In this document: piece by piece, positions 23,622 through 64,000 of the stretch
Layout: each line of letters opens with the position of its first letter
How positions within the stretch are numbered: the first letter of the stretch is position 1
NCBI RefSeq assembly: GCF_001273845.1
Contig: NZ_JHBW01000110.1
Location: 1-64,000 of the forward strand
DNA: 64,000 bases
Direction of reading: 5' to 3'
Source: Leucobacter musarum subsp. musarum
Lineage (GTDB): Bacteria; Actinomycetota; Actinomycetes; Actinomycetales; Microbacteriaceae
Program-made: the position numbers and the translations under genes
Notes under the pieces: generated by a model
Told to the model about the DNA's origin: nothing
The model's input: only the letters and a program-made list of their open reading frames with translations
Database searches by the model: none

Positions 23622-24317
23622 CTACCCGAAGCGGTAGCCGACGCCGCGCACGGTCGAGATGAGCTTCGGCTTCGACGGCTCCTCCTCGATGCGCGCGCGG
23701 ATGCGCTTGATGTGCACATCGAGGGTTTTGGTGTCGCCGTAGTAATTGCTGCCCCAGACGCGGTCGATCAGCTGGCCGCGGGTGAGTACGCGCCCAGCGT
23801 GACGCATCAGCATTTCGAGGAGCTCGAACTCGCGCAGCGGCATGGCGATCTCGTCGCCGCGGACGGCGACGGCATGGCGCTCGGAGTCCAGGCGGATCCC
23901 GAGCTCGTCGAGCACGAGCGCATCGAAATCGTCGACGCGCTCCTCTTCGGTCGACCCCGAGCGGCGCAGGGCAGCGCGCACGCGGGCGAGCAGCTCGCGC
24001 GTCGAATAGGGCTTCGTGATGTAGTCGTCGGCGCCGAGTTCGAGGCCCACGACGATGTCGATTTCGCTGTCTTTGGCGGTCAACATGATGACGGGAATCT
24101 GCGAGGTCTGGCGAATCGCACGGCAGACCTCCGTGCCCGGCAGGCTCGGCAGCATAAGGTCGAGCAGTACCAGATCGGGTTGTACGCCGGCGAACGTCGT
24201 CACCGCTTCAGCGCCGTCGTCGACCACGGTCACCCGGTAGCCCTCGCGCTCGAGCAGGAACGACAACGGCCGGGAGATCGACTCCTCGTCCTCGACAAGC
24301 AGAATGTGCTGTGCCAC
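23622..24317 (-). CDS. regX3: Phosphate-type response regulator RegX3/PhoB
   Basis: An OmpR/PhoB-family response regulator of 231 residues. The receiver domain (1-115) has the acidic pair in LVEDEES, the phosphorylation site Asp in LVLLDLMLP, and the switch Lys in ITKPYS. The winged-helix DNA-binding domain (130-231) ends STVRGVGYRFG. GTG 24317 overlaps the senX3 stop by one base (TAGTG), so kinase and regulator are coupled. With phoU divergent, this is the actinobacterial SenX3-RegX3 phosphate system. It is the likely binder of the GTTCACC-type repeats at phoU and in the glycopolymer locus. Confidence 0.93.
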   Translation of the reverse strand: MAQHILLVEDEESISRPLSFLLEREGYRVTVVDDGAEAVTTFAGVQPDLVLLDLMLPSLPGTEVCRAIRQTSQIPVIMLTAKDSEIDIVVGLELGADDYITKPYSTRELLARVRAALRRSGSTEEERVDDFDALVLDELGIRLDSERHAVAVRGDEIAMPLREFELLEMLMRHAGRVLTRGQLIDRVWGSNYYGDTKTLDVHIKRIRARIEEEPSKPKLISTVRGVGYRFG

Positions 24318-25597
24318 TAGTGGGATCCCTTCTGGTGGTCCGACGTCTGCGACGTCGGGAGTTTCGTGGGCGCGGTGATCGGCGAGCGTGACGCACGCGT
24401 CGAGCGCTCGGCGGCCTGCATCGCGCGCTTGGCCTTCTTCACGCGTTTCGCGCTCTTGCCGGGCTCGTTCTCCAGCTGCAGCGGAAAGGTCAGGGTGAAG
24501 CTCGAACCGACACCCTGCTGGGACCACACGTCAACGTCGCCGCCGTGGGCGCGCATGGTGTGGCGGGCGATGCTGAGCCCGAGCCCCGTGCCGCCCTCGA
24601 CGCGGGTACGCGCGCCGTCGACGCGGTAGAAGCGCTCGAAGATGCGCGGCAGGTGTTCGGGAGCAATGCCTTCGCCCTGATCGGTGACCGTGACGACGAA
24701 GCGGTTCTTCTCGCGTTGCATGCCGACGCCGACGCGGCCGCCCTCGGGCGAGTGCCGAATGGCGTTGCTCAACAGGTTCGCGATCGCAGAGCTCAAGGAG
24801 GTCGGTCGGCCCAGAATGGTGGTCTCCCGCTCCTTGCCGGCGTCGGCGGTGACGACGAGGTCGACCTGGTGCTGTTCGGCGAAGGCGCGGTGCGTTTCGA
24901 CCTCGGCGCGCACGAGGTCGCGCAGATCGACGGATTCGCGATCCTCCGGCCGTAACGTCGACTGCGCCTCAGAGAGCTGGATGATGTCGCGTGAGAGCTC
25001 ACCGAGGCGACGCGACTCCTTCACCAGGCTCTTCGCGAAGTCGCGCACGAGCGGCGGCTCGTCGGAGGCCTCCTGCACGGCCTCCGAGAGCAGGCCGATC
25101 GCCGCGATCGGTGTCTTGAGTTCGTGGCTGACGTTCGCAATGAAGTCGCGGCGCATCGCGTTGACGCGCTGCTCCTCGCCCAGATCCTCCGCCAGAATCA
25201 CCACGAAGCGCTGCTGCAGTCGCACGATGTGAATGCGTACGGTGTCAGTCGGATCGGTAGGATCCGGCTCATGCGTATCGGGAATGCCCGACGACATCAC
25301 GCGGCGCACGCGAGCGAGAAAATCGGTGTCTTGCAGCTCTTCGTCGCTCAAGTGGCGCTCGTGCCGTGCGACCGGGTTTACGTAGACCGGGGCGAGCGCC
25401 GAGTCGAGGATCACCGCAAAGGTGTCCACTTCATCGAGAATCGACGTTGCGACCTCTGGCAGCTCGGGCCGCATCTCTTTCGAGCGGCGCACCCCTGCCG
25501 CGCGGGCCCCGACGATTGCTATCGTGGTGCCTACGCCGATGAGTATGCCGAGTGCTGTCGCTGCGAGAACGAGCAGAGTCGGGTCCATGTCTCTCAT
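24317..25597 (-). CDS. senX3: Sensor histidine kinase SenX3
   Basis: A membrane-bound kinase of 426 residues. It has one N-terminal transmembrane segment (about 6-32), a PAS-like sensing region (50-150), and the H-box FIANVSHELKTPIAAIG with the phosphorylated His. The ATPase domain has the N-box LLSNAIRHS and G-boxes DQGEGIAPEHLPRIFERFYR and GTGLGLSIA. The basic Lys/Ala/Thr tail after 385 is not part of the core. In mycobacteria this kinase reads phosphate status together with PhoU and the Pst transporter. It is transcribed away from phoU, with 130 bases in between. Confidence 0.93.
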   Translation of the reverse strand: MRDMDPTLLVLAATALGILIGVGTTIAIVGARAAGVRRSKEMRPELPEVATSILDEVDTFAVILDSALAPVYVNPVARHERHLSDEELQDTDFLARVRRVMSSGIPDTHEPDPTDPTDTVRIHIVRLQQRFVVILAEDLGEEQRVNAMRRDFIANVSHELKTPIAAIGLLSEAVQEASDEPPLVRDFAKSLVKESRRLGELSRDIIQLSEAQSTLRPEDRESVDLRDLVRAEVETHRAFAEQHQVDLVVTADAGKERETTILGRPTSLSSAIANLLSNAIRHSPEGGRVGVGMQREKNRFVVTVTDQGEGIAPEHLPRIFERFYRVDGARTRVEGGTGLGLSIARHTMRAHGGDVDVWSQQGVGSSFTLTFPLQLENEPGKSAKRVKKAKRAMQAAERSTRASRSPITAPTKLPTSQTSDHQKGSH

Positions 25598-25629: not shown

Positions 25630-25684
25630 GTTCAACTGTTGTTTACCTATTGGTGCGACGCGGTTCATTGGCCGCGCCCAAACT
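25630..25684 (+). promoter_or_regulatory. Pho-box-like array upstream of phoU
   Basis: Four heptamers fall on an exact 11-base period: GTTCAAC (25630), GTTTACC (25641), GGTGCGA (25652, poor) and GTTCATT (25663). The pattern matches the GTTCACC-N4-GTTCACC layout known for PhoP/RegX3-type regulators. Nine bases after the last unit a weak CAAACT could be the -10. Control by RegX3 would make phosphate signalling self-adjusting. Confidence 0.65.
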
Positions 25685-25727: not shown

Positions 25728-26369
25728 ATGCGTGAGGTCTTTCAGCAGTCGCTTCGCGATGTGCAGGATCGGTTGGTACTGATCGCCGAGTTGGTCGAGC
25801 AGGCCATCACCGAGGCGACGACCGCATTCGGCACGTCAGATGTGTCGATCGCGGAGAAAGTCATCGACCGCGTCGATGAGATCGAAGTACTGGCTGCAGA
25901 GCTGGATCAGCTCACCATCGACATCCTGGCCCGTCAGCAGCCGGTCGCGTCCGACCTGCGCCTGATGGTCGGTTCGCTGCGCATGAGCGCGTCGCTCGAG
26001 CGCATGGCCGATCTTGCGCAGCACATCGCTCAGCTCGCGCGCTACCGCTACCCCGAGAGCGCGATCCCGGCCGGACTCACCAAGACGTTCGCCCGCATGG
26101 GTGCGCTCGACGTCGAGATGGCGAAGAAGATCGTCGAGCTGCTGCGCACGCAGGAGCCCCGTCTCATCGCCGAGGTGCGCGACCTCGACGAAGACCTCGA
26201 TGAGCTGCACGCCAAGGTGTTTGAGAAGGTGCTCAGCGACAACCTCGCCGAGACCCCCGCGAACGTCGTCGATTCGACGCTCGCGAGCCGCTACCACGAG
26301 CGTTTCGGCGATCACGCGGTCGGCATCGCCCGCCAGATCCAGTACTTCATCAGCGGCTCGCTCGACTAG
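25728..26369 (+). CDS. phoU: Phosphate signalling regulator PhoU
   Basis: PhoU links the Pst phosphate transporter to the SenX3 kinase and dampens signalling when phosphate is plentiful. The 213-residue all-helical protein holds two three-helix repeats, with the metal-binding-type motifs [16 protein letters not shown] in the first and [25 protein letters not shown] in the second. ATG 25728 follows an excellent AGAGGAGAGG. No pst gene adjoins. It is single in its transcript and followed by a hairpin. Confidence 0.95.
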
Positions 26370-34881: not shown

Positions 34882-34939
34882 GCGAGCAACTCTGCACCCC
34901 GTACACTGAGTGCGTTCGTACTGTCAGGGGAAGGGCACC

Positions 34940-36841: not shown

Positions 36842-36871
36842 CGACTGGCTGATCGCGTCAGTTGATCACGA

Positions 36872-36909
36872 TGAGGGTGGGTTGCTCCGAATGGAGCAGC
36901 CCACTCTCA
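36872..36909. terminator. Inverted repeat between convergent SLH and acyltransferase genes
   Basis: Positions 36872-36888 pair with 36893-36909 over 17 bases with two G-U wobbles and a tight 4-base loop. The right arm includes the stop codon of the acyltransferase. Confidence 0.6.
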
Positions 36910-39039: not shown

Positions 39040-39049
39040 TCTTCTCGGC

Positions 39050-39080
39050 TGTGACGGGCGATCGCCCCGGTCACACCCTA
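39050..39080 (-). promoter_or_regulatory. Promoter and operator-like palindrome of the acyltransferase gene
   Basis: On the minus strand TAGGGT (39080-39075) could be the -10. Directly downstream lies a near-perfect palindrome (39050-39075: TGTGAC and GTCACA around GGGCGATCGCCC). A protein bound there would block transcription start. Confidence 0.45.
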
Positions 39081-39156
39081 GCGGAAGGGGCAAATCGGCG
39101 TCGGGTGGATCGGAGCCGCGCACGCGAGGCGCGTAGCGATATCGCGAAGTTCAACC

Positions 39157-39162
39157 TACTGT
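39157..39162 (+). promoter_or_regulatory. -10 box TACTGT of third SLH gene, leaderless start
   Basis: TACTGT lies 7 bases before ATG 39170. It sits inside an inverted repeat, GTTCAAC-CTACT-GTTGAAG (39149-39167), which could be an operator over the promoter. Confidence 0.4.
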
Positions 39163-39169
39163 TGAAGTC

Positions 39170-41014
39170 ATGTCGGGGGGAATGAAAACGGGAGTGCGCG
39201 CAGCACTGCTCGTCACACTATCGTTTGCGCTGCTCTTTCAGGGCGGTGCGGCGTTCGCCGACCCTGCCCCGAGCCCGGTGACCCCCGAGCCCACGGTATC
39301 CGTCGATGCCGCGGCAGATACAGACGATGCGGGATCAGCCGACGCCTCGGGATCCTCAACTGCTGCTGACGATTCAGCGAATGCCGACAGCTCCGCAACG
39401 AGTGGTGCCGAGACCTCGTCTGAAGCCGATGCGAGTGCCGGGTCTGAGGCGAATACCGACGCCTCCGGGGCCGACTCCGAGGGCGGCACGACAGCAGACG
39501 GCTCGAGTTCAGCCGCAGAGGCCGACGCCGGAGCCGACGGAGACGACGCCGCGGCGCAGACAGATTCTGACGCCGACGCACAAGCTGACCCGACCCCGTC
39601 GCCGACCGAGCAGAGCACGCCGACCCCATCAGATCTGCCCGACGAAGCGATCGATGAGAGCTTGGGGAACGAACGCTCGCTGCGCTCTCTCGCGGCATCG
39701 ACGTCACTCTCGAACGGCTTCAACGCCGGCTACATTGTCTCCGATCAGAACTTCTACAACGGTTCCGGGATGTCGACATCTCAGATCCAGACCTTCCTGA
39801 ACCAGAAGGTCGGCCGCTGCACAATTGGCGACCCAGGTCGTGCACCAGGTTCTGCTTGGGGAAATACGACGATCGCCTGGTCATGCCTGAACGGAGCCAA
39901 GTGGACGACGTCGAATCGCGCCTCGAACTCGTATTGCAAAGCTGTTTCCGGTGGGTCGCAGCAGTCGTCTGCAGCGATCATCTCGAAGATCGCCAGTGCG
40001 TGCGGCATTAGCCCGCAGGTGCTGCTGATCACCCTCGAGAAAGAGCAGAGCCTCATCTCGGATACGTGGCCCACGGCACGCCAGTTCGATGTGGCGACCG
40101 GGTACGGTTGCCCCGACACCGGGCCCAACTACTCAGCGAACTGTAACCCGGCTTATCTCGGGTTCCCGAGCCAGGTGTATTACGCCGCTTGGCAGCTGAA
40201 GGTCTATAAGGCCAACCCTGGCAACTACAACTACGCGCCCTACCGCACGAATACGATTCAGTGGCACCCGAACCCGGGCTGCGGCACGTCGCAGGTCTAC
40301 ATCGAGAATTACGCAACCGCGGCGCTGTACATCTACACGCCGTACCGCCCGAATCAGGCCGCGCTCAACGCGGGTTGGGGCACGGGTGACGCATGCTCGA
40401 GCTACGGTAACCGCAACTTCTATCAGTTCTACAAAGCGTGGTTCGGTACGCCGAATTCGGCCTTCCCGGATGTGCCTCCCAGTCACCAGTTCTTCACGGA
40501 GATCCAGTGGATGGCCTCTACGGGTCTATCAACTGGCATCAAGACGTCTGACGGCCGCGTCATCTACCAACCCAAGGGCGCGGTGACGCGTGAGGCGATG
40601 GCGGCGTTCCTCTACCGCATGGAGGGTGCGAGCTACACCGCGCCGAAGAAATCGCCGTTTGCTGATGTGCAGCCGGGTGACAAGTTCTACCGCGAGATCA
40701 CATGGATGTACGCGAAGGGCTACTCGACGGGCATCAAGCAGAACGGTGTGCTCGTCTACGCTCCGAAGAATTCGGTCAGTCGTGAGGCGATGGCGGCCTT
40801 CATTTACCGCATCCAGGGCGGCAAGTACACAGGCCCCGCCAAGTCGCCCTTTGCCGACATGCAGCGCGGAGACAAGTTCTACAACGAGGTCACCTGGATG
40901 TACGCGCGCGGCTACGCAACTGGAATCAACCAGGGCGGTACCCGGGTGTACGCCCCGAAGAACTCGGTCAGCCGTGAGGCAATGGCAGCGTTTATCTACC
41001 GTCTCAGTCGCTGA
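39170..41014 (+). CDS. Secreted SLH protein with lysozyme-like domain
   Basis: A 614-residue exported protein. The signal peptide is MKTGVRAALLVTLSFALLFQ, cleaved near AFA/DP. An Asp/Ala/Ser/Thr linker (25-165) follows. The conserved domain at about 178-425 (AGYIVSDQNFYNGSGMSTSQIQ...KISSACGISPQVLL-like...YGNRNFYQFYKAWFG) is known to me from many actinobacterial secreted proteins. Glu290 and Glu292 in TLEKEQSL after a short helix recall lytic transglycosylases. Three SLH domains lie at 430-614. The conserved cysteines suggest disulphides. It may remodel peptidoglycan at the wall surface. ATG 39170 agrees with a leaderless promoter; ATG 39182 is the alternative. Confidence 0.75.
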   Translation: MSGGMKTGVRAALLVTLSFALLFQGGAAFADPAPSPVTPEPTVSVDAAADTDDAGSADASGSSTAADDSANADSSATSGAETSSEADASAGSEANTDASGADSEGGTTADGSSSAAEADAGADGDDAAAQTDSDADAQADPTPSPTEQSTPTPSDLPDEAIDESLGNERSLRSLAASTSLSNGFNAGYIVSDQNFYNGSGMSTSQIQTFLNQKVGRCTIGDPGRAPGSAWGNTTIAWSCLNGAKWTTSNRASNSYCKAVSGGSQQSSAAIISKIASACGISPQVLLITLEKEQSLISDTWPTARQFDVATGYGCPDTGPNYSANCNPAYLGFPSQVYYAAWQLKVYKANPGNYNYAPYRTNTIQWHPNPGCGTSQVYIENYATAALYIYTPYRPNQAALNAGWGTGDACSSYGNRNFYQFYKAWFGTPNSAFPDVPPSHQFFTEIQWMASTGLSTGIKTSDGRVIYQPKGAVTREAMAAFLYRMEGASYTAPKKSPFADVQPGDKFYREITWMYAKGYSTGIKQNGVLVYAPKNSVSREAMAAFIYRIQGGKYTGPAKSPFADMQRGDKFYNEVTWMYARGYATGINQGGTRVYAPKNSVSREAMAAFIYRLSR

Positions 41015-43798: not shown

Positions 43799-43932
43799 CG
43801 CGGGGAGTCGCCGAGCCTGGGCGCTCTCGACGGGTCGCCAGCTCGGGCGCACGAGTCAGCACTATCGTGGGTTTCAGGCGCCTGAGCAGTGCGCTGGGCG
43901 CGAGGGCGCCGACTCTGCAGAAAGGTCGCGCA

Positions 43933-46900
43933 ATGAGCGAATCGGAGCAACCGGACATCTCGGTCATCGTCGTCACGTACAACGATGCGGTGCACCTCGC
44001 GGCAGCCGTGCAGTCGGTGCTCGATCAGTCGCTCGCCTCGATCGAGGTCATCATCTCGGACGACCACTCGGCCGATCACACCCCCATCGTTGCGGGTGAG
44101 CTCGCCGCATCGGATGCGCGCGTCGTGTCGCATCGCCGCAGCGAGAATGCCGGAGCCCCCGGCGCTCCGCTGAACGACGGGCTCGATCGCGCGCGCGGCC
44201 GCTACGTCATGTTCCTCGGTTCAGATGACGTGCTCGCTCCCGGCGCGTGCGCTGCACTGCTCGAGGCGGCGGCCCGCACCGGTTCCGAGATCGTGTCGGG
44301 TCAGCTGGTGCGCGTGATGCTCGGGGAGGGCGGCGAACGACGCCCGTGGTTCCCGGAGCTGTATCGTGCCGAGCGCACGGACGCGTCGCTCGCAGATTTT
44401 CCGGATCAGCTGCACGACACGTTGACAACGAACAAGCTCTACTCACGCGAGTTCCTCACGCGCATCGGCGCGCGTTTCCCCGAGGGGATGTTCTACGAGG
44501 ATGTGGCGTTCTCCGCCGAGACGCTCGCGCAGGCGAACGGGATCACCCTCATACCGAACGAGGTGTACGAGTGGAACGTGTACCCCCGCGAGGAGCGGGA
44601 ATCGATCACGAATCAGCGTGCGACGCCGAAGAATCTCGAAGACCGACTGCGGGCGCTCGACCTCGCCGAGCAGTCACTTGCCGCGAGCGGCCTGGCGGTG
44701 CTGCGCGAATTCCATCGAAAGACGCTCACTCACCATCTGCGGTTCTACCTCAACGACTTCCTCACGGCCGACGACGACTGGTGCGAGTGGGTGCTCGAGA
44801 CCGTGCGCCCGCGACTCGAGCGCACGCCGCTCGACGCATTCCGCAGCGGATTCCTCGGAGATCGCGCGCTGTACGCCGCGGCCCTTGAAGGCGACATCTC
44901 CGCAGTGCGCGCAGTGCTGCGCGGCAAGCAGGCCGGCGCCCTCGCCGGGCACGTGTACACCAATGGCGGCGTCACGTTCTGGGCCCCTCGGGGCCCGGAA
45001 TCGCGACCGCATCGCACCGAGCTCGCGCGCGAACTCTCGGATGTCACGGATCGCGCGGCGAGAATCGCCTCACACGCCACCCTCGTCTACGCAGCTGAAA
45101 TCCTCGACGCAGAACTCGACGACACTGTTCACGAACCCACCCGCCTGCGCCTGCGCGGCACCGCGACCGATCTCCGTGGGGTGCTGGCAGATTCCCGCAC
45201 GGTATTCCGGGTGATCGCTGAGTCGAACGCTGCGATCGCGCGTCTCGATGCAGCGGCACCAGAGGTGCTTGCGACCGATGTTGATATGACGGTTGTTCCT
45301 GAAGGCGTGACCTGGGAAGCCGCGATTGCGCTTCCGGAGCACGGCTCTGGAGCTCAGGCGGGCACCTGGAACCTGTCGCTCGTGGCAACCGACGCGGCCG
45401 GAACCGAGAACGTCATCGCACTGCGTCGACCGCACGCCGGTACCGATGCGGGTGCGGCGGCAGCGGTCATCACTGACGGGTGGACCATCGACCCGGACCC
45501 CGATGGTCGCGCGCGGCTCTCGCTCGCTCGCGCATCGCATCCGGGGCAGCACAATGTCATCGTGATCGGCGACGTGAGTTGGCGCGGGCGCTATCACCTG
45601 GGCGACGAGGCGATGACGGAAGCCGCCATCGACCAGCTGCGCGCCCAGGGGCTCGGAGTCACCCTCGTCGCGGGCGATCCCGAGCTCTCTGCAGCGTTTT
45701 ACGGCGTGCCCACGGTGCCGGTGTTCGGATTCGCGAAGCTGCGCACGGATGCCGCGCGCGAGGAGCGCGCCGACGCCATCCTTGCGGGAGCTCACGGCGA
45801 AGCTCCGCTCGAAGACGCTGACGCCGCTTCGGTGAGGGCGGTGCTGCAGGCGTCTGCGGTGGTGATCGCCGGCGGGGGCAACATGAACTCGAGCGGCGCT
45901 CATCACATTTACGAGCGCCTGGTACTCACCCGGCTTGCGGCCCACGCGGGCATTCCCGTCTACGTCTCGAGCCAAACGGTGGGCCCGCATCTGCTGCCTG
46001 AGCACCGCGGGCTGGTGCAGGAGATCGTGCAGACCGCCGCGGTCTTCGGGTCTCGCGAACGCGCGACCACGGCGCTCATGCGCGAGCTGGCGGGGGATCG
46101 CGGCGTCGTCGTGCAGACGCTCGATGACGCGCTGCTGCTCACGCCTGCAGAGCTGACGTCGCCGGTGCAGGATCGCGTATCGCTGCCCGAACGCTACGTC
46201 GTCGGCAGCTTCACGTATCACGCGTTCTCCACGGGGCTTTCGCGTGAGGAGTACTACCGAGCACTCGCCGGCATGCTCGACGACGTGGTGGAGTCGAACG
46301 ATGTCGACGTGATTCTCCTGCCGCACATGGGGGTGCTCGGCCCGGCCCGGCAGTCGGGTGAAGACAACGACGAGTTCGGCCACGACCGCATCGCCGCGTG
46401 GTCTCGCACTGGCCGGGTGCGGTCATTGCCGCTGGTCTCCGCGCGCGAGGTGTTCGGCATTACCGCGGGTGCGCGCTTCAGCATCTCGACCCGCTACCAC
46501 CCGGTCGTGTTCGGTGCCGCGCTCGGAGTGCCCGCGATCGGCGTCGTCACGAGCTACTACTCGGCACTTCGCATGCGCGGTGCGCTCTCGCAGTTCGGCA
46601 TGGAATCGTTCGCGATTCCCTTCGAGCACTGGGGTCTGTTCGGCCCGCGGGTGCTCGAGGCGCTGCGGGAACGTCGGGATGAGTTCGCCCAGCACAGCAG
46701 GCAGGTCGGTGAGTCGCAGCAGGCGTATCAGCGGTCATGGTGGGCGGGCATTGCAGCCAGCATCGTGGACGCCGGAGAACCGCTGCGCAGCGACGCATCA
46801 CTTCCGGATGCCTTCGAGTGGAGCGATGCCGCCGACGCCGACCTCCTCGCGGTCGCCCGCGTCGCGCAAGAGGGCACCAACATGTACCGCATGAACAACC

Positions 46901-47154
46901 TGTTCACGGTGGATCGGCATGAGACGGGGCTGAACCAGCACACCCGAGATCTCGAGGCGGTTGCGAAGCGTCTGACCCAGCTCTCCGAGGGAGTGCGTCG
47001 CGCGGATGCGCTCGCGAAACGTGTGACTGCGTTGGAACGCGTGCAGAAGGATACGGAGGCGCTCATCGCCGACCTGCGGCACCGCATGCGCCCGCCAGGA
47101 GCGGCACTGCGCGATCGCGTGCGCGGTGCGTTGCGCCGGGGGCGAGAGCAGTAG
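43933..47154 (+). CDS. GT2 glycosyltransferase fused to polysaccharide pyruvyltransferase
   Basis: A 1073-residue fusion. Residues 1-230 are a GT2 domain (ISVIVVTYNDAVHLAAAVQS, FLGSDDVLAP). The middle 230-535 includes an Ig-like beta part. Residues 540-935 are a pyruvyltransferase domain of the CsaB/WcaK family (VIVIGDVSWRGRYHLGDEAM, VIAGGGNMNSSG, SSQTVGPHL, STRYHPVVFGAALGVPAIG). A coiled coil ends in LRHRMRPPGA. The enzyme would add a sugar and a 4,6-ketal pyruvate from phosphoenolpyruvate to a wall polymer. ATG 43933 follows GAAAGG. It is divergent from the GT2-TagF gene. Confidence 0.85.
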   Translation: MSESEQPDISVIVVTYNDAVHLAAAVQSVLDQSLASIEVIISDDHSADHTPIVAGELAASDARVVSHRRSENAGAPGAPLNDGLDRARGRYVMFLGSDDVLAPGACAALLEAAARTGSEIVSGQLVRVMLGEGGERRPWFPELYRAERTDASLADFPDQLHDTLTTNKLYSREFLTRIGARFPEGMFYEDVAFSAETLAQANGITLIPNEVYEWNVYPREERESITNQRATPKNLEDRLRALDLAEQSLAASGLAVLREFHRKTLTHHLRFYLNDFLTADDDWCEWVLETVRPRLERTPLDAFRSGFLGDRALYAAALEGDISAVRAVLRGKQAGALAGHVYTNGGVTFWAPRGPESRPHRTELARELSDVTDRAARIASHATLVYAAEILDAELDDTVHEPTRLRLRGTATDLRGVLADSRTVFRVIAESNAAIARLDAAAPEVLATDVDMTVVPEGVTWEAAIALPEHGSGAQAGTWNLSLVATDAAGTENVIALRRPHAGTDAGAAAAVITDGWTIDPDPDGRARLSLARASHPGQHNVIVIGDVSWRGRYHLGDEAMTEAAIDQLRAQGLGVTLVAGDPELSAAFYGVPTVPVFGFAKLRTDAAREERADAILAGAHGEAPLEDADAASVRAVLQASAVVIAGGGNMNSSGAHHIYERLVLTRLAAHAGIPVYVSSQTVGPHLLPEHRGLVQEIVQTAAVFGSRERATTALMRELAGDRGVVVQTLDDALLLTPAELTSPVQDRVSLPERYVVGSFTYHAFSTGLSREEYYRALAGMLDDVVESNDVDVILLPHMGVLGPARQSGEDNDEFGHDRIAAWSRTGRVRSLPLVSAREVFGITAGARFSISTRYHPVVFGAALGVPAIGVVTSYYSALRMRGALSQFGMESFAIPFEHWGLFGPRVLEALRERRDEFAQHSRQVGESQQAYQRSWWAGIAASIVDAGEPLRSDASLPDAFEWSDAADADLLAVARVAQEGTNMYRMNNLFTVDRHETGLNQHTRDLEAVAKRLTQLSEGVRRADALAKRVTALERVQKDTEALIADLRHRMRPPGAALRDRVRGALRRGREQ

Positions 47155-47160
47155 CGTCAC

Positions 47161-47204
47161 GTTCACCCGAAATTCACCCGCTGTTCTGGTGTACTCGCTG
47201 AACT
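47161..47204 (+). promoter_or_regulatory. Pho-box-like triple repeat before the wecB operon
   Basis: GTTCACC (47161), ATTCACC (47172) and GTTCTGG (47183) fall on an 11-base period with spacers CGAA and CGCT. Nine bases after the last unit, TGAACT (47199-47204) could be a weak -10. It would drive the five-gene operon from 47298. Confidence 0.65.
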
Positions 47205-52210: not shown

Positions 52211-53296
52211 ATGTCTGCACGAGTCATTCACATCACCGGCGCACGCCCCAACTTCCCGAAGGCCGCACCCGTGATGCGCGCGCTCGACGATCTCGGCGTC
52301 GATCAGTTGCTGGTGCACACCGGTCAGCACTACGACGACAAGCTCTCCGACGTGTTCTTCCGGCAGCTCAACCTGCGAAAGCCCGACCTGTCGCTCGGCG
52401 TCGGCTCGGGGTCGCACGCCACGCAGACGGCCGCCGTCATGGTGGCGCTCGAGGAGGTCTTCACCGAGCACCAGCCCGAGCTCGTCGTCGTGTACGGCGA
52501 CGTGAACTCGACGCTGGCCGCGGCACTCGTCGCCTCGAAGCTCGGCATCGCGCTCGCCCACGTCGAAGCCGGACTGCGCAGCTTCGACCGGACCATGCCC
52601 GAGGAGATCAACCGGATTCTGACCGATTCGGTCTCGGACCTGCTCTTCACGACGAGCCCCGATGCCAACGTGCACCTCGGTCACGAGGGGGTGCCCGAGG
52701 AGAGGATCTTCTTCGTCGGCAACCCGATGATCGACACGCTCCTCTCGAGCGTCGACCGCTTCGATGCGAGCGCAGTGTTCGCGGAGCTGCCGTTCGAGGC
52801 GTCCGACCCCTACCTGGTCGCGACGCTGCATCGGCCGGCAAACGTCGATGACCCGACAGCGCTGCAGGATTTGGTGTCAGCGCTCATCGAGTGTGCCGCA
52901 AAGGCGCCCGTCGTGCTGCCGATGCACCCGCGCGGCGTGCGCGCCTTCACCGCGACGGGCATCTTCGAGCAGCCGAACATCCACATCATCGAGCCGCAGG
53001 GCTACCTGGAGTTCATGGGTCTCGTGCGCGGCGCTCGCGCCGTGGTCACCGATTCGGGCGGGGTGCAGGAGGAGACCACGATGCTCGGGGTGCCCTGTCT
53101 CACGCTGCGGCCGAACACGGAGCGCCCGGTGACGATCTCTGACGGCACGAACACGCTGGTGACGCCGCAGACCGTGGTGTCGGTGCTGCGGGATCGCCTT
53201 GCCGCCTCGGCCGACGCCGAGCACCGCACTCCGCCGCTCTGGGACGGAGCCGCCGGTCGCCGCATTGCGCGCATCATCGCTGAACGCGTGGCATGA
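52211..53296 (+). CDS. wecB: Non-hydrolysing UDP-GlcNAc 2-epimerase WecB
   Basis: It interconverts UDP-GlcNAc and UDP-ManNAc, supplying ManNAc for wall polymers. The 361-residue enzyme has the landmarks ARPNFPKAAPVMRAL, LVHTGQHYDDKLSD, VVVYGDVNSTLAAAL, HVEAGLRSFDRTMPEEINR, GNPMIDTL and TDSGGVQEET, with the family's catalytic acids and His. It lies fourth in the operon, and its stop overlaps the next gene by four bases. The dehydrogenase encoded at 55943-57214 could oxidise its product. Confidence 0.93.
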   Translation: MSARVIHITGARPNFPKAAPVMRALDDLGVDQLLVHTGQHYDDKLSDVFFRQLNLRKPDLSLGVGSGSHATQTAAVMVALEEVFTEHQPELVVVYGDVNSTLAAALVASKLGIALAHVEAGLRSFDRTMPEEINRILTDSVSDLLFTTSPDANVHLGHEGVPEERIFFVGNPMIDTLLSSVDRFDASAVFAELPFEASDPYLVATLHRPANVDDPTALQDLVSALIECAAKAPVVLPMHPRGVRAFTATGIFEQPNIHIIEPQGYLEFMGLVRGARAVVTDSGGVQEETTMLGVPCLTLRPNTERPVTISDGTNTLVTPQTVVSVLRDRLAASADAEHRTPPLWDGAAGRRIARIIAERVA

Positions 53297-55942: not shown

Positions 55943-57214
55943 CTACAGTCGGTGGACGTTCTCGCCGCGGAGGCTATTGCGGGTGTCGAAGACCGGGATT
56001 CCCGAATCGACGAGCAGCGACAGATCGATGTCGGAGTGATCGGTGACGACGATCGCGATATCGGCCGAGGCGATCGTGTCGGCGTTCAGCTCGACGCGCT
56101 CGGCGCCGGCCGGCCAGCGGTGCTCCTCGACGTGGCTGTCGACTCCGAGTACCTCGGCGCCGTAGCTCTGCAGCAGTTCGATGACGCGCAGCGCCGGTGA
56201 CTCCCTCGAGTCGCCCGAGTCCTTCTTGTAGGCCACACCGACGAGCAACACCCGTGAACCGCGCAGCGCCTTGCCGTCGTCGTTGAGCAGGTGCATGGCG
56301 CGTTGCACCACATGATCGGGCATGTGCTCGTTGACGTCGTTCGCAAGCTCGACGAAGCGGAAGTTGCGGCCGAGCTCGGTGCGCACCTTCCACGACAGGT
56401 AGCTCGGGTCGATCGGCAGGCAGTGCCCGCCGACGCCCGGGCCGGGGGTGAACTTCATGAACCCGAACGGCTTCGTCGCTGCGGCGTCGATGGACTCCCA
56501 GACGTTCACCCCGAGCTCGTGCGCGAACACCGCGAGCTCGTTGACGAGGGCGATGTTGACGTGGCGGAAGGTGTTCTCGAGCAGCTTCGCCATCTCGGCC
56601 TCACGCGGCGAACTCACCGGCACCGTCTGATCGACCAGGTCCGAGAACAGTCCGTTCACCTTCTCGAGCGATCGTTCATCGATGCCCGAGACGATCTTCG
56701 GCGTGGTTTGGAAGCTGAACTTCTGGTTGCCGGGATCGATGCGCTCGGGGCTGTACCCGACGTGGAAGTCGGTGCCGGCGCGGAGGCCCGAACCCTCCTC
56801 GAGAATCGGGATCAGCAGTTCCTGCGTCGTGCCCGGGTACGTGGTCGATTCGAGCACGATGGTGGCGCCCGGCGTGATGTGCGGGGCGAGCGATGCGCCC
56901 GAGCTCTCGATGAAGCTCAGATCAGGCGTCGAGTCTTTCAACGGCGTGGGCACGGTCACCACGGCGAAGTCGAACCCGGCCGCTTCGGCGTAGTCGTTCG
57001 TCGCGCGATAGCGACCCGTCGACCCGGCTGCCGTGAGTGCGGTGTTCGAGATGTCCTCGACGTACGACTCGCCACGGTTGAGCGCGTCGATACGACGCTG
57101 ATCGAAGTCGATGCCGACCACGTCGTAGCCGGCTTCGACCGCGCGGACCGACAGTGGGAGACCGACGTAGCCCTGGCCGATAACGACGAGTTTGGGTGCC
57201 TCAGAGTTGCTCAC
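55943..57214 (-). CDS. UDP-N-acetylhexosamine 6-dehydrogenase (WecC/WbpA type)
   Basis: A 423-residue NAD-dependent enzyme that would oxidise UDP-ManNAc or UDP-GlcNAc to the uronic acid in two steps. The N-terminal Rossmann fold is LVVIGQGYVGLPLSVRA, and VPTPLKDSTPDLSF follows. GYSPERIDPGNQKF is closer to the WbpA/UDP-GlcNAc class than to WecC. The catalytic Cys lies in GVGGHCLPIDP. GTG 57214 is 7 bases after a TAGGCT -10, with a Pho-box-like pair 9 bases upstream of that. With wecB adjoining, ManNAcA or GlcNAcA in the polymer is likely; the exact sugar is unresolved. Confidence 0.88.
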   Translation of the reverse strand: MSNSEAPKLVVIGQGYVGLPLSVRAVEAGYDVVGIDFDQRRIDALNRGESYVEDISNTALTAAGSTGRYRATNDYAEAAGFDFAVVTVPTPLKDSTPDLSFIESSGASLAPHITPGATIVLESTTYPGTTQELLIPILEEGSGLRAGTDFHVGYSPERIDPGNQKFSFQTTPKIVSGIDERSLEKVNGLFSDLVDQTVPVSSPREAEMAKLLENTFRHVNIALVNELAVFAHELGVNVWESIDAAATKPFGFMKFTPGPGVGGHCLPIDPSYLSWKVRTELGRNFRFVELANDVNEHMPDHVVQRAMHLLNDDGKALRGSRVLLVGVAYKKDSGDSRESPALRVIELLQSYGAEVLGVDSHVEEHRWPAGAERVELNADTIASADIAIVVTDHSDIDLSLLVDSGIPVFDTRNSLRGENVHRL

Positions 57215-57221
57215 GGGTGTC

Positions 57222-57254
57222 AGCCTAGGATTGCGAAAATAACGAGCGGTGAAC
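57222..57254 (-). promoter_or_regulatory. Pho-box-like pair and leaderless promoter of the dehydrogenase
   Basis: On the minus strand GTTCACC (57254-57248), GCTC, GTTATTT (57243-57237) are followed by 9 bases and then TAGGCT (57227-57222). The GTG start lies 7 bases later. The box replaces the -35, as in class II PhoB-type activation. Confidence 0.65.
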
Positions 57255-57324
57255 GGAACGTGGCCGTTTGTTGCCCCTTGCTAGATTGATCGGGATCGAG
57301 GATTCCGGGGCGACAGGAGGTGCC

Positions 57325-59208
57325 GTGAGCGCGACCGTGCAGCGAGACTACGCGAACCATGCAGCGTCGACTCTGGAGTCGTGGGCGCCGCACACGACCC
57401 TGATCATGGCGTGCTTCCGGGTCGGTGAATACCTGCCAGTGTTCCTCGCGTCGCTCGACGCGCAGACGGCGGATCATCGTGACTACGAACTCGTATTCGT
57501 GATTGATGGGTGCCCGGAAGACTCCGAAGACGTCGTCGCACGGTGGGCCGAACGCACCGACTTTGTGGTGCGCATCATTGTCCAGGAAAACGGCGGCGTG
57601 GCCTCCGCGCGCAACACCGGGCTCCGGGCGGCGCGCGGACGCTGGGTATCGTCGCCCGACCCCGACGATCGCCTCGACGACGAGTACCTCGCACGCATCG
57701 CCGAGGCCCGCAGTGCAGCTCCCGGGGTGGACATGGTGGTGGGTCGCATTCAACTGCGCGACCCGCAGGGTCGCGCGATCCCGCACCCCCTCGACGGCAA
57801 GTTTCGCGACGCCCGACGCCGTGTCGTCGATCTCGGTGTCGACGCCGACGCCGACGACATTCAGACCCTTGGTGGCTCCGTGTTCTTCTCGACCGAGCGC
57901 ATCCGCGAACACGACCTTCGGGTGCACGAGGGGCTGCCGACCGCCTCCGACGCCGACTTCATCATGCGCTATCTCGTCGCGACGGGCGCGCGCTACCTGC
58001 TGGTGCCTGACGCGATCTACCACTACCAGCGTCGCGCCGATGACTCGTCGATTGTGAAGCGTCAGGAGCGCAACATCGAGCGCTTCACCGTCGTGTTCGG
58101 CGAGACCCATCGCGCGCTGCTGCTCAGCACCACGGGGGAGTGCCCGAGGTGGCTCGCCAACACCCTGCTGTACTTCACCTCGTACCTCTTCCGACGGAAC
58201 CTGCAGGCGCAGTCGCCGGTGTACGATACCCCCGCCGAGACCCTCGCGATCATCGATGCCGAGCTGCGCAGGAACCTCCAGTTGATCGGCGCCACGCACA
58301 TTACGGCGTTCCGCATCGTCGCCCTGCCGCACGAGATTCGGATGGCGTGGATCGCGGCGGCGACCAACCAGCGCTTCACGCAGACCCCCGTGCACGCGTT
58401 GGGCTCCCCGCGGCCTGCTGGGCGGCGGCACCTCGCGCTGTACCTCCCACTGGGATCGGAAGTTCCGGCGATCGAGACCACGGCGCGCGTCGTCGACCAG
58501 AAGGTTCGAGAGGTCGAATTTCTCGGCGCCCCGTGGGTGCAACAGGTGGTGCTGATCATGCAGAGCGCCGAGGCGCCGCACGTGCTCAACGTGGCAGGAA
58601 TGGAGCTCTCGGGCAACGACGATGACCCAGGAGTTGCCCCTGGCACCGAGCCGCGGCGACTGGGGGTGATCGGCAGGGTGCGGCGCGCCAGCTATGCGAT
58701 TCCGCTCCGGATCGCCGGGCTCACCGGCGCCTCGCGTCGATTGGCCGGGGTGCGCGTCATCGACCCGAGCGGCGTCCCCGCAGGGCCACTCGCCGCGGCT
58801 GCGCTGAACGCGCTGCCCGCTGAGGGCGCGACCTTCTGGGTCGTGCGTGACCCCGGTTTGCCGGCGACCTCGCTCCCGAACGGAATGCGGAGTGTGCGGC
58901 GCGGCAGTCGCGCGCACTTCATCCTGATGAAGCACGCCGCGTGGCTGGTCGCGGCGAGCCTGGATGGCCGCGTGCAGCAGCCGTTCACGCGTGATGTGCT
59001 GGAGCCGACGTGGCAACGTGCGCACGTAGTGACGGGGGCGCTCGGAGCGCACGACTTCCGCGCACTGAACCCTCTACCCGTCGAGCTGCTCGTCGTGCCG
59101 ACCGAGTCGGAGCGAGTCGAAGTCACCGCGTCAGGGAGCAGATACCGGTTCGCCGACAGTGAGGTGCGCTCCGCGTCTTCCCGGGGTTCATCTTCCGGCG
59201 AAGTTTAG
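57325..59208 (+). CDS. GT2 glycosyltransferase with degenerate TagF-like C-terminus
   Basis: A 627-residue protein homologous in layout to the GT2-TagF enzyme at 41042-43729. The GT2 domain (about 20-260) has TTLIMACFRVGEYLPVFLASL, NGGVASARNTGLRAARG and SSPDPDD. The C-terminus (480-627) aligns with the first part of the TagF domain (ATFWVVRD, RGSRAHFILMKHA, QPFTRDVLEPTWQ). However, QHG is replaced by TGALGAHD, and the protein stops where about 200 more residues, including the CDP-binding half, should follow. Phosphotransferase activity is therefore probably lost. GTG 57325 follows CAGGAGG; TAGATT at 57280 fits a -10. Confidence 0.8.
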   Translation: MSATVQRDYANHAASTLESWAPHTTLIMACFRVGEYLPVFLASLDAQTADHRDYELVFVIDGCPEDSEDVVARWAERTDFVVRIIVQENGGVASARNTGLRAARGRWVSSPDPDDRLDDEYLARIAEARSAAPGVDMVVGRIQLRDPQGRAIPHPLDGKFRDARRRVVDLGVDADADDIQTLGGSVFFSTERIREHDLRVHEGLPTASDADFIMRYLVATGARYLLVPDAIYHYQRRADDSSIVKRQERNIERFTVVFGETHRALLLSTTGECPRWLANTLLYFTSYLFRRNLQAQSPVYDTPAETLAIIDAELRRNLQLIGATHITAFRIVALPHEIRMAWIAAATNQRFTQTPVHALGSPRPAGRRHLALYLPLGSEVPAIETTARVVDQKVREVEFLGAPWVQQVVLIMQSAEAPHVLNVAGMELSGNDDDPGVAPGTEPRRLGVIGRVRRASYAIPLRIAGLTGASRRLAGVRVIDPSGVPAGPLAAAALNALPAEGATFWVVRDPGLPATSLPNGMRSVRRGSRAHFILMKHAAWLVAASLDGRVQQPFTRDVLEPTWQRAHVVTGALGAHDFRALNPLPVELLVVPTESERVEVTASGSRYRFADSEVRSASSRGSSSGEV

Positions 59209-59240
59209 TTCTCAAGCCGTTCACCTCGCCTGGTTAGGCT
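59208..59240 (+). promoter_or_regulatory. Pho-box-like pair and -10 before the pyruvyltransferase gene
   Basis: GTTCTCA (59208-59214), AGCC, GTTCACC (59219-59225) are followed by 9 bases and then TAGGCT (59235-59240). Box type, 9-base gap and -10 are the same as at the dehydrogenase promoter. The leader then runs about 37 bases to ATG 59284. Confidence 0.65.
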
Positions 59241-59283: not shown

Positions 59284-60807
59284 ATGCGGGTTGTCGTCGT
59301 CGGTGATCTCGCCTGGGACGGCCGGTACCACCTCGGCGACGAGGCAATGTCGGAAGTCGTGCTGCAGCAGCTGCAGTCGCGCGGCGACACGGTGACGTTC
59401 ATCGCGGGCAACCCCGAGGTCACCACACGTTTCTACGGCGTCGCCGCAGTGCCGCGCTTCGGCATGCGAGACCTCGATCGCGACGCGCAGTTCATGCTGC
59501 TCGACACGCTGGAGGGTGCGGCCAGCGAACCCGGTCGCGCGCCGCATTCTGCGCGCGCCACGCTCAACGCGCTGCGCGCCGCCGACGCGGTGATCATCGC
59601 GGGTGGCGGCAACCTGAATTCCATCGGCATCCACCATGTGCTTGAGCGGGTTGCCGTGACCCGCATTGCCCGAGCGCTCGACATTCCGCTCTACGTCACC
59701 AGCCAGACCGTCGGGCCGCACCTGCGTGACGGCGAGCGAGAGCTGGTTGCCGAGATCGCGCGGTACGCGCGGGTGTTCGGGGTGCGCGAGCGTAACTCCG
59801 CCGCGCTCGTGCGCGGGCTGGCTCCGGGCGCAAACGTCGTGCACACCCTCGACGACGCGATCCTGCTCGAACCCGCAGCACTCACGCACCCGCTGGACCT
59901 GCCGGCCAAATATGCCGTCGCCAGCTTCACGTTCCACCCCAAAACCACCGCACTGCACGTCGACGACTACTACCGCGAACTCGCGGCGATCCTCGACCAA
60001 CTCGCGACTGAGCTCGATGTCGACGTGCTGCTGCTGTCGCACATGAGCACCTTCCAGACACCGAACACGCTCGGCGGTGAAGACGACGGCTACGGGCATG
60101 AACGCATCGCCGCGCTCTCGGCATCCGGGCGTCTCCGCGTGCTTCCGTTGTTGCCGGCGGCGGAACTGCTCACGATCACGGCCGGAGCCGAGTTTTCGGT
60201 GTCGACGCGGTACCACCCGCTCATCTTCGGCGCCGCACTCGGCGTTCCCGCCATCGGTATCGTCACCAGCTACTACTCCGCGATCCGCATGCGCGGGGCC
60301 CTCGCCAACGTGGGCATGGAAAGCTTCGCGATTCCTTTTGAGCACTGGCGGGCGAGCTTCGCGGCACCGCTCATCGCGTCACTGCGCGCGAGACTCGGCG
60401 AGTTCCGCGAGCACCTCGGGCGCACGGGAAGCGCGAGTCGTGAGTTCCAGCAACGGTGGTGGGCCGAGCTGGTCGCGAGCCTACACGAACATCGCGCGCC
60501 TCGATGCGCGGACGCGCCCGCCGCGGCAGACTTGTCGTGGGCAGATTCGGAGACGCAAGACGCGCTGGCGCTGGCCCGCGGAGCTCAGGAACTCACGAAC
60601 CTCGATCGCCTGAACGCACTCATAGACACCGAACTGCGGCGGCAACAGCACGATGCGGCCTGCGCCCGGATCGAACACCTCGAACGCGAGCTCGGGCGTC
60701 TGAGCGACGCCGTCGGCGATCTGCGCCACCGGATGCGACCGCCCGGGGCGAACCTGCGTGATGCACTCAGACGCAGACTCGCCTCCGGTCGGGGCGAGAA
60801 CGGCTAA
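59284..60807 (+). CDS. Polysaccharide pyruvyltransferase (CsaB/WcaK family)
   Basis: A 507-residue enzyme that would transfer enolpyruvate from PEP to make a pyruvate ketal on a wall-polymer sugar. Landmarks are VVVVGDLAWDGRYHLGDEAM at the start, IIAGGGNLNSIG, TSQTVGPHL, HTLDDAILL, STRYHPLIFGAALGVPAIG and a predicted coiled coil (about 440-485) ending in DLRHRMRPPGANLRD. The whole length matches the C-terminal half of the 43933-47154 fusion. ATG 59284 follows a GGGGGAACGGA box. Its stop overlaps the convergent gene by four bases. The promoter carries a Pho-box-like pair. Confidence 0.88.
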   Translation: MRVVVVGDLAWDGRYHLGDEAMSEVVLQQLQSRGDTVTFIAGNPEVTTRFYGVAAVPRFGMRDLDRDAQFMLLDTLEGAASEPGRAPHSARATLNALRAADAVIIAGGGNLNSIGIHHVLERVAVTRIARALDIPLYVTSQTVGPHLRDGERELVAEIARYARVFGVRERNSAALVRGLAPGANVVHTLDDAILLEPAALTHPLDLPAKYAVASFTFHPKTTALHVDDYYRELAAILDQLATELDVDVLLLSHMSTFQTPNTLGGEDDGYGHERIAALSASGRLRVLPLLPAAELLTITAGAEFSVSTRYHPLIFGAALGVPAIGIVTSYYSAIRMRGALANVGMESFAIPFEHWRASFAAPLIASLRARLGEFREHLGRTGSASREFQQRWWAELVASLHEHRAPRCADAPAAADLSWADSETQDALALARGAQELTNLDRLNALIDTELRRQQHDAACARIEHLERELGRLSDAVGDLRHRMRPPGANLRDALRRRLASGRGENG

Positions 60808-63800
60808 GCGGCCGGGTCGATCGCGTCGACGAACATCTGCAGCGAATGCTGCGAGAACGACTCCGCATCGAACTCCGTCGAGCCAGTGAGCTTGCCGTCG
60901 GCGATGCGGTGCACGGCCTCGACGAGCCCCTCGTGCGAGATCGGCACGAGGGGGCCGAATGCGCCATCGTGCAGCACCGAGCGCGAGCCCGGGGTGTCGG
61001 TCGCGATGACCGGTGAACCGATCGTGAGCGCTTCGAGCAGCACGAGCGGCTGCCCCTCGTGCAGCGACGGGAGCACGAGGGCGCCCGCGGCCTTCAGATG
61101 CGCTTGCGGGTTCGGCACCTGGCCGCGGAGTCGCACCAGGTCGCCGAGTTCGAGCCGGTCGATGATCTGCTGCAGTTCAAGTCGCAGGGGCCCGTCGCCC
61201 ATGCAGGTCACCTTCACCGGGCGCGACAGATGCTCGCGCTGCTCGGCAAGTGCGGTGAAGAACGCGGCGTGATTCTTTTCGTGCGAGAGCCGCGCGATAA
61301 ACGCTGCATGGGCGCCCGGGGTGGCGTACCACTCGAGGTCTTCAGCGTCGAGCGGCACCTCAGCGAGCGCACGAATCTCGGCCACGTTGATGGTGTTCTC
61401 GATGGTGATGTGCTTGTCGACCGGCACCCCGAGGTGCTCATGCAGCGTCTGTGCGTTGTAATCGCGCACGCCGTCGCTGACCGAGGCGCAGAAATCCATC
61501 TCGTCCATCGATAGGAAACCGGGCTTCAGCCGCGGGTACTTGTTCTCGATCTCCTTCCACATCTCGTTGTGGAAGATGATGCCCCGTGAACCGCCGTTGA
61601 CGCGGACCCCGTACCCGATGAGCGCGATGTTCTTCGCATCGTAGGCGCTGAACTCGACGGCGGCGTGAAACTCCGTGGTGCCGAACAGACGACGCGCTTC
61701 GCGTTGTTGCCCGCTCTTGATGAACTGCTTGACGAGCGGGAAATCGAGGTAGCGACGCGTTGAGAAGAACTGCAGCGCTTCGCGCTCCATGCGGGTTCCT
61801 GCGAAGAGAGAGACCGTGGGGAGCACGCGAGCGTACTCGCGCACATCCGCGAGCGTGCCGGGCTCGGCGCCATCGAGGGCGTTTCGGTTCGGCATGAGAT
61901 ACGGCGAGTACTCGGTGCCGTCGAGCGACGCGATCAAGCTGCGCACGGAACGCGTGATGCCGTTCGGCGGGAGACCGCCCGTGGAGAGCAGCACCGTGCG
62001 CTTGCTGGGGCGGGTCGCTGCGGGAGTGTGCGACCGGAGCAGCTCGATTGAACGCTGTGCTGAATTGCCGCGCTCCTCGGAGCTGAAACGCTCGGTGAGT
62101 GGGGCGTAGGAATCAACGAAAGCGTCACGGTCAGCAACCGCCGCGAGCAGATGCTCACGCGCCTCGGCCAGCGATGCGGCATTCGCGCCAGGAATCTCGT
62201 CGGCCGAGAAGTACAGTCCGCGATCGGCACGATACGCGTCGAGGTCTGCGGTGAGCTTCACCACGGGAACGCCGACCGCGGCGGCATCGAACAGCACGCT
62301 CGAGAAGTCGGTCACCACGGCGTCTGCCGCGCCGATGAGTTCGTTCGTGTCGAACTCCGGCGGCACGAATACGAATCCCTCGGGCGCCGCGGCACCGCGG
62401 AACGACTTGCTCACGTAGTGGTGTGCGCGCACGGCGACGGTCAGCCCGGCCGCACCCAGACCGCGGGCCGTGTCGATGACCTCCTGCACCTCAGCGTTTC
62501 GCTCCGAGAACGTGCCTTTCCACGTCGGCATGTATAGTACGAGCGAGCCGCCCTCCGGTACACCGAGTGTCGAACGAATCGCGTCGCGCTCCTCCGAGGG
62601 AAGATTCACCGCGAGGTCGTTTCGCGGATAGCCGCTGCGCACGAAGATCTCGGGTCGGAGCTCGTCGAGATCATGACCGCGCGATAGCACGTCGAGGGTG
62701 TGCTCATCGGGACCGAGCACGACGTCGGCGTGCAAGAAATTACGGGTGATGTTGCCGTAGGCGAACGGCTCCGATTTGTTGTCTCGGCCCATCGTCTTCC
62801 ACGGAACCCCGTGCCAGGTGTTCAAGTAGCGCTGTCCCTCGCGCTTCACGAAGTTGTACTCGATCGTCGAATTATTGATGATCGAGCCCGCGCAGGCCAG
62901 ATAACGGAAGTGACCCGACGAGCCCTTGCGCACAAAGATCACGTTGGGGAGATCTCGAAGCGAGGGGTGCACGATGGCATTGGCATCGATGCTCCAGACA
63001 TGCAGCATGTCGGCATTCTCGGGGTCTTTCAAGAACTCGCGGCAGATCGCCAGCGGGTTGCAGGTCGTCGACGCTCCGAGCGACGACTCGTAGAGCACGG
63101 TTCGCTGCTGCAACGGCTCGGTCTCGGCGCACTCGTGATAGTAGATGTTGCGGGCGGAACCGAGGCGAGTCCACTTCGGGAGCGTCAATTGGATTGACGG
63201 GAGCCGCTTGTATTGCGCAGTGCGAGTCGCTTCCCAAGCCTCGTCCCACTCCTCGGCATCGGCCAGCTGAGCCGCCAAGCGCATCGACGCCTGCCAGCGC
63301 ACCTTGCGGCTGCTGGCACGGAGCGCAATCTGGCGCAGATGCTCGACGCGGAGGGGATAAACGAGTCGTCGGTTGTATTGTTCGACGAGATCGACGATCT
63401 GCGGGTCGACCTCGTGCTCGAGGTCATCGGGCGGGATCGTCTCGGGCAGATTGAGATCTTCGAGGTAGCTCAGTACGGCAGCCTCGGCCCCCTCAGATTC
63501 GGCGAGGAGCGAGGCGAGCCGGAATCGATGCAGCAGCGAGCGTTCGCGCGGCTGCGCTGAGCGGTACGCCTCGATTGCATCTTCGTGGCGTTCGAGCAGC
63601 TCGAGGAGCTGACCCAGATGCGACTTCATCGCACGTGGCGCATCGGCCCGGTGCATGGCAATCTGCGCGTGTGCGATGCCCGTGTCGAACTCGCCGAGCT
63701 GCACCCGCGCGCGGAAGCTCAGATCGAGCAGATGCGTTTCGGCAGTCGCATCGAGATGCTGAAGCAGCTTCGCTGCTTCGTCAGCATGCTGGTACTCCTC

Positions 63801-64000
63801 GAGCTGCAGCTGCGCCACCGCGAAGACATCAAAGCCATCGGCTGTCGGCGCGAACTCGCGGTACAGTGCCTCGACATCCGCATTCAGTCCGAGCGACCGG
63901 GCGCAATACGCTGCGATCAACAGCCGCTTGTCGCCTGCGGGAAGCTTCGGGAAGGTGCGAAAATCCTCCCAAGCCTCTTCGAACCGGCCCTGCTTCATCA
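60804..64000 (-). CDS. Helical-repeat/TagF/GT4 multidomain polymer enzyme (5' end outside window)
   Basis: At least 1064 residues; the reading frame reaches the window edge, so the true start may lie beyond it. Residues 1-260 as numbered here are TPR-like helices. A TagF domain (about 290-660) has the catalytic NTWHGVPWKTMGRDNK, LYMPTWKGTFSE and VVTDFSSVLFDA. A GT4 domain (about 670-1064) has GGLPPNGITRSVRSL, IARLSHEKN and PSLHEGQPLVLLEAL with the conserved Glu. It would add glycerol-phosphate (or a related polyol phosphate) and a sugar to the polymer. It converges with the pyruvyltransferase gene, stops overlapping in CTAA. Confidence 0.85.
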   Translation of the reverse strand, partial: MKQGRFEEAWEDFRTFPKLPAGDKRLLIAAYCARSLGLNADVEALYREFAPTADGFDVFAVAQLQLEEYQHADEAAKLLQHLDATAETHLLDLSFRARVQLGEFDTGIAHAQIAMHRADAPRAMKSHLGQLLELLERHEDAIEAYRSAQPRERSLLHRFRLASLLAESEGAEAAVLSYLEDLNLPETIPPDDLEHEVDPQIVDLVEQYNRRLVYPLRVEHLRQIALRASSRKVRWQASMRLAAQLADAEEWDEAWEATRTAQYKRLPSIQLTLPKWTRLGSARNIYYHECAETEPLQQRTVLYESSLGASTTCNPLAICREFLKDPENADMLHVWSIDANAIVHPSLRDLPNVIFVRKGSSGHFRYLACAGSIINNSTIEYNFVKREGQRYLNTWHGVPWKTMGRDNKSEPFAYGNITRNFLHADVVLGPDEHTLDVLSRGHDLDELRPEIFVRSGYPRNDLAVNLPSEERDAIRSTLGVPEGGSLVLYMPTWKGTFSERNAEVQEVIDTARGLGAAGLTVAVRAHHYVSKSFRGAAAPEGFVFVPPEFDTNELIGAADAVVTDFSSVLFDAAAVGVPVVKLTADLDAYRADRGLYFSADEIPGANAASLAEAREHLLAAVADRDAFVDSYAPLTERFSSEERGNSAQRSIELLRSHTPAATRPSKRTVLLSTGGLPPNGITRSVRSLIASLDGTEYSPYLMPNRNALDGAEPGTLADVREYARVLPTVSLFAGTRMEREALQFFSTRRYLDFPLVKQFIKSGQQREARRLFGTTEFHAAVEFSAYDAKNIALIGYGVRVNGGSRGIIFHNEMWKEIENKYPRLKPGFLSMDEMDFCASVSDGVRDYNAQTLHEHLGVPVDKHITIENTINVAEIRALAEVPLDAEDLEWYATPGAHAAFIARLSHEKNHAAFFTALAEQREHLSRPVKVTCMGDGPLRLELQQIIDRLELGDLVRLRGQVPNPQAHLKAAGALVLPSLHEGQPLVLLEALTIGSPVIATDTPGSRSVLHDGAFGPLVPISHEGLVEAVHRIADGKLTGSTEFDAESFSQHSLQMFVDAIDPAA

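Follow-up and report, generated by a model that had tools for sequence, protein, structure and literature searches.

The 64,000-nucleotide stretch of Leucobacter musarum subsp. musarum analysed here (the window) carries a wall-polymer gene cluster, in which a nucleotide-sugar 6-dehydrogenase gene and a stand-alone pyruvyltransferase gene are each preceded by a putative PHO box. The features of the cluster are as follows.

43867..47154, plus strand: glycosyltransferase fused to a second pyruvyltransferase domain
47161..47178, plus strand: candidate third PHO box, GTTCACC cgaa ATTCACC, ahead of a glycosyltransferase gene (47298)
52211..53296, plus strand: UDP-GlcNAc 2-epimerase (WecB/MnaA), which supplies UDP-ManNAc (TIGR00236, 8.5e-89, above cut-off)
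55943..57214, minus strand: nucleotide-sugar 6-dehydrogenase, a single-gene unit (TIGR03026, 2.8e-121)
57222..57227, minus strand: -10 element TAGGCT of the dehydrogenase, 9 nt past the repeat (tcgcaatcc) and 7 nt ahead of the GTG
57237..57254, minus strand: putative PHO box of the dehydrogenase, GTTCACC (57254-57248), gctc, GTTATTT (57243-57237)
57325..59208, plus strand: GT2 glycosyltransferase, divergent from the dehydrogenase, with its own -10 TAGATT at 57282-57287
59186..59225, plus strand: putative PHO operator of the pyruvyltransferase, four 11-nt units, GTTCATC ttcc GGCGAAG ttta GTTCTCA agcc GTTCACC
59235..59240, plus strand: -10 element TAGGCT of the pyruvyltransferase, 9 nt (tcgcctggt) past the last repeat
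59284..60807, plus strand: stand-alone polysaccharide pyruvyltransferase, CsaB-like (PF04230, 1.4e-31; TIGR03609, 1.8e-24, below cut-off)
60804..63998, minus strand: CDP-glycerol glycerophosphotransferase (TarF-like) plus GT4 (PF04464, 6.4e-56)

The dehydrogenase is the only nucleotide-sugar dehydrogenase match detected in the genome, and its nearest specific models are UDP-ManNAc dehydrogenases. The stand-alone pyruvyltransferase has the PS_pyruv_trans domain (PF04230) but reaches only 86.6 bits against the TIGR03609 equivalog cut-off of 213, and hence is a family-level relative rather than CsaB proper. It is monocistronic since the next gene is convergent. The cluster also encodes glycosyltransferases, two glycerophosphotransferase proteins and SLH proteins. 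Three SLH-domain proteins are encoded at 31189-41014, beside two pyruvyltransferase genes in an actinobacterium; one of the three also has CHAP and FG-GAP domains.

The two promoters share one layout of a heptamer, a four-base spacer, a second heptamer, nine bases and TAGGCT. An earlier note on this DNA had described this arrangement at both genes and called the boxes identical. The layout, the nine-base gap and TAGGCT were all confirmed at the coordinates listed above, while the half-sites differ and the plus-strand operator is longer, with an in-register GTTCATC at 59186. The dehydrogenase promoter has the perfect GTTCACC as its upstream half-site, the pyruvyltransferase promoter as its downstream half-site (plus strand, GTTCTCA 59208-59214, agcc, GTTCACC 59219-59225). 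Direct GTTCACC-like heptamers repeated every 11 nt are strong at the pyruvyltransferase, where the first part of the operator overlaps the end of the preceding gene and the ATG lies at 59284 on the plus strand. At the dehydrogenase there is one good half-site, GTTATTT being poor, and weak in-register units reach upstream to 57276. Its GTG start is at 57214 on the minus strand, only 7 nt past TAGGCT, so the transcript would be leaderless. In the direction of the divergent GT2 glycosyltransferase no box was accepted, as the heptamer GTTTGTT lying 9 nt before TAGATT is a poor repeat. The idea that TAGGCT has a special role common to both promoters was rejected, since this -10 element is ordinary, being found 6 times in the window against 5.9 expected and present without the box in the genomes G106 and G126.

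In Streptomyces coelicolor, the published PhoP motif consists of GTTCACC and a four-base spacer (PMC4415409). Both sites are likely to be PHO boxes, i.e. direct repeats to which we infer that an actinobacterial PhoP (RegX3-type) binds. A PhoP-dependent promoter presupposes a cognate PhoR-PhoP pair, and one is encoded in the genome; its genes and phoU lie in the same window, 31 kb from the two sites.

23622..24317, minus strand: phoP (regX3-like) response regulator, the presumed activator (best PDB match RegX3, 2oqr, 1e-87; TIGR02154, 8.5e-69, below cut-off)
24317..25597, minus strand: phoR (senX3-like) sensor kinase (TIGR02966, 3.4e-71, below cut-off; HisKA and HATPase_c)
25630..25684, plus strand: putative PHO operator and -10 of phoU, GTTCAAC tgtt GTTTACC tatt GGTGCGA cgcg GTTCATT, 9 nt, CAAACT
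25728..26369, plus strand: phoU (TIGR02135, 8.4e-47, above cut-off)

The two sites resemble the organism's own phosphate promoters. The pstS promoter reads GTTCACC tgtt GTTCACC cact GGCAGAC atcg CGTCATG, followed by 9 bases and TAGCGT, and the array at phoU is the same in G121 (apparently Leucobacter sp. L43) and in G106. The genome has two copies of the perfect repeat GTTCACCN4GTTCACC, one upstream of pstS and the other next to pit. In E. coli, the direct repeats from which PhoB activates precede the -10 and stand where a -35 element would be. The earlier note had offered such a box as an analogy; the published motif, the phoP-phoR-phoU genes in the window and the likeness to pstS and phoU make it the likely identity of the sites. 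Repeats replacing the -35 are common to both systems, whereas the E. coli repeat, CTGTCAT, differs and the distance here is 9 nt to TANNNT.

The phase between repeat and -10 also matches. Of 24 genomes sampled from the order, 22 have the repeat array plus TANNNT at pstS. The phase was tested with no gap assumed beforehand. Measured from each good repeat to TANNNT, the distance came to 9 mod 11 for 50 of 60 pstS cases and for 19 of 20 Brevibacteriaceae pyruvyltransferase cases. Both sites in the window show the pstS phase exactly (9 nt).

Chance look-alikes, arising from GC-rich sequence with common -10 elements, would account for the sites only with a very slight probability. TAGGCT is no commoner than chance, and the reversed-pattern control for GTTC-N7-GTT-N13-TANNNT gave 2 matches in the 3.44 Mb genome, against 3 for the pattern itself, two of which are these sites, 2 kb apart; these counts come from pattern searches. 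The plus-strand site, however, lies far outside random expectation in its scores, location, conservation and phase. Scored by a model built from pstS promoters of other species, it ranks first in the 64-kb window, phoU being second, and its score was never attained in random sequence; with a generic -10 model it scores 32.6 against 32.7 for the organism's own pstS. Since the training sets include related species, the counts are not entirely independent.

The dehydrogenase box is weaker than the pyruvyltransferase box. About 1.2 sites of its quality are expected per window with the pstS-trained -10, i.e. it is borderline, and 0.04-0.09 per window with a generic TANNNT -10. An alternative hypothesis could be that the pyruvyltransferase site alone functions as a PHO box, and that the dehydrogenase has an ordinary leaderless promoter with a GTTCACC nearby by chance. 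The single good half-site and the borderline score agree with this, as does the retention of the leaderless -10 without any box at the dehydrogenase orthologues of other Leucobacter. On the other hand, the 9-nt phase is exact, and with the generic -10 a site of this kind is expected only about 1e-4 times in the 150 bp that precede any one gene. Moreover, GTTCACCN4GTT occurs only five times in the genome, the dehydrogenase site being one and two others lying upstream of pstS and next to pit. In Leucobacter sp. L43, GTTCAYC, GTT and TAGGCT are kept while the bases between them have changed. We therefore regard the single-site explanation as unlikely.

Leucobacter sp. L43 has a syntenic gene pair, 90% and 70% identical, and is the only other genome in which the pair was found. 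It retains both operators, the nine-base gap and TAGGCT, with altered spacer and leader bases; its dehydrogenase box reads GTTCATC ggtc GTTTTTG. No box was found at the dehydrogenase orthologues (64-88% identical) of six other Leucobacter, so that this box is seen in two genomes only, nor at the other Leucobacter pyruvyltransferases examined. The G126 assembly has its dehydrogenase orthologue broken into two frames (G126:C1:2839344-2840608). The earlier note had proposed conservation of box and spacing in close relatives as a test, and had argued that both genes are co-activated. Conservation holds in L43, the nearest relative with both genes, but fails in more distant orthologues (G106, G132, G126 and others), and hence the control appears to be lineage-specific. 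On sequence evidence, co-activation thus seems well supported for this lineage and is probably not a general Leucobacter trait.

Two further explanations concern the regulator and the direction of its action. Recognition of tandem repeats is common to OmpR-family regulators, and the response regulator in the window also matches the MtrA and YycF models, so another member of the family, e.g. MtrA, might use the repeats in response to a signal other than phosphate. We give this little credence, as the same repeat and phase precede the organism's own pstS and phoU, the same repeat lies next to pit, and among solved structures RegX3 comes closest to the regulator. It is also conceivable, but decidedly unlikely, that the PhoP operator represses the divergent glycosyltransferase as well, lowering one gene while raising the dehydrogenase. 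The operator (57237-57276) is just upstream of the glycosyltransferase -10 (57282-57287), and a region matching the glycosyltransferase promoter is kept in L43; the 9-nt phase on the dehydrogenase side, however, is the activator layout of pstS.

Our analysis suggests, with a probability of roughly 80%, that PhoP activates both the dehydrogenase and the pyruvyltransferase under phosphate limitation, and that carboxylates replace phosphate charge in the wall. Under phosphate scarcity PhoR would phosphorylate PhoP, and PhoP~P would bind the 11-nt direct repeats, substitute for the -35 element and bring RNA polymerase to the -10, TAGGCT, which follows after nine bases. This would switch on two single-gene units, encoding the nucleotide-sugar 6-dehydrogenase and a second, stand-alone ketal-pyruvyltransferase. 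The dehydrogenase probably converts UDP-ManNAc to UDP-ManNAcA, its substrate coming from the WecB epimerase at 52.2 kb. Since both enzymes would put carboxylates on the wall polysaccharide, these phosphate-free acidic groups likely compensate for less phosphate-rich teichoic acid.

Pho control of wall polymers has precedents. A Pho-controlled switch from teichoic to teichuronic acid operates through tua in B. subtilis and has been proposed for S. coelicolor and Planobispora rosea (PMC4415409, PMC8269224). A uronic-acid-forming dehydrogenase under putative Pho control in a wall-polymer cluster is a shared feature, seen here at the level of sequence. In contrast, there is no tua-like operon here; the boxes lie on two single-gene steps only, one of which adds pyruvate and not uronic acid. 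Pho control of a whole operon was not found in the polymer cluster: the window scan gave boxes at the two single genes plus one candidate site, most polymer genes having none, and no PHO box was found at the fused glycosyltransferase-pyruvyltransferase. The candidate site at 47161..47178 has no good -10 at 9 nt, and its core is kept in L43 as GTTCACT cgaa ATTCACG (L055, around 9582).

The PHO boxes of S. coelicolor have 11-nt repeat units in multi-unit operators with strong and weak units, and their targets include pstS, phoU and pit (PMC4415409, PMC7866108). The heptamer, the N4 spacer, the multi-unit operators and these target types are common to both organisms, while the targets here include a ketal-pyruvyltransferase. 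The locus also resembles the systems in which CsaB pyruvylates SLH-binding secondary wall polymers, having a CsaB-like enzyme, a WecB epimerase and three SLH-domain proteins, but it has two pyruvyltransferases, one apparently phosphate-controlled. The type of switch is already known; its application to an enzyme that adds pyruvate appears not to have been described, and no account of phosphate-controlled pyruvylation turned up in our literature search, which was not exhaustive. In Micrococcales, the phosphate regulon would be widened to the acidification of wall polymers. Pyruvate ketals plus one uronic-acid step could be an alternative to the teichuronic-acid switch in replacing phosphate charge. 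Phosphate supply would also be tied to the anchoring of surface proteins, because SLH proteins bind pyruvylated polymers.

The same layout was found at ten stand-alone Brevibacterium pyruvyltransferases. In all 10 cases no site in the 10-17 kb locus ranks above the pyruvyltransferase promoter, and no obvious polysaccharide neighbours were seen in the loci inspected. The protein tree of the pyruvyltransferases requires two separate label changes, most simply explained by two independent gains of the operator, in Leucobacter and in Brevibacterium. We speculate, giving it an even chance, that a stand-alone pyruvyltransferase came independently under PhoP in at least two lineages, these among them, and that its ketal-pyruvate provides phosphate-free negative wall charge or adjusts SLH anchoring in phosphate starvation. 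Among the Actinobacteria known to have pyruvylated wall polymers is B. iodinum (PMC6801904). The idea of phosphate-controlled pyruvylation should be easy to test, because the arrangement is convergent in Brevibacterium and pyruvate is a known wall component in that genus.

Other PHO-like sites were observed along the way. The perfect box at G000:C18:116935-116952 (L002, L137) lies between a Pit-type phosphate transporter gene and a glutaredoxin-like gene and points to the latter; a related box is upstream of pit in G106 (L170). A candidate polysaccharide-linked box in G106 (C52:108408) was rejected, as it is the pit box. The high-scoring site C18:64573 / L050:13325 was likewise discarded as a PHO promoter: it falls within the last part of the upstream coding sequence, and its supposed -10 coincides with the next start codon. 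A PHO-like box with a 9-nt gap and TACCGT/TAGGGT stands ahead of a leaderless regulator, which by eye looks to be of the RpiR/MurR type, in two Leucobacter genomes (G000:C93:141108-141125, L140; G106, L186). Three genomes (G000:C96:52398-52415, G121:C1:1125131 and G106:C61:80989) have kept GTTCACC-N4-ATTCACG at a distance of a few kb upstream of pstS.
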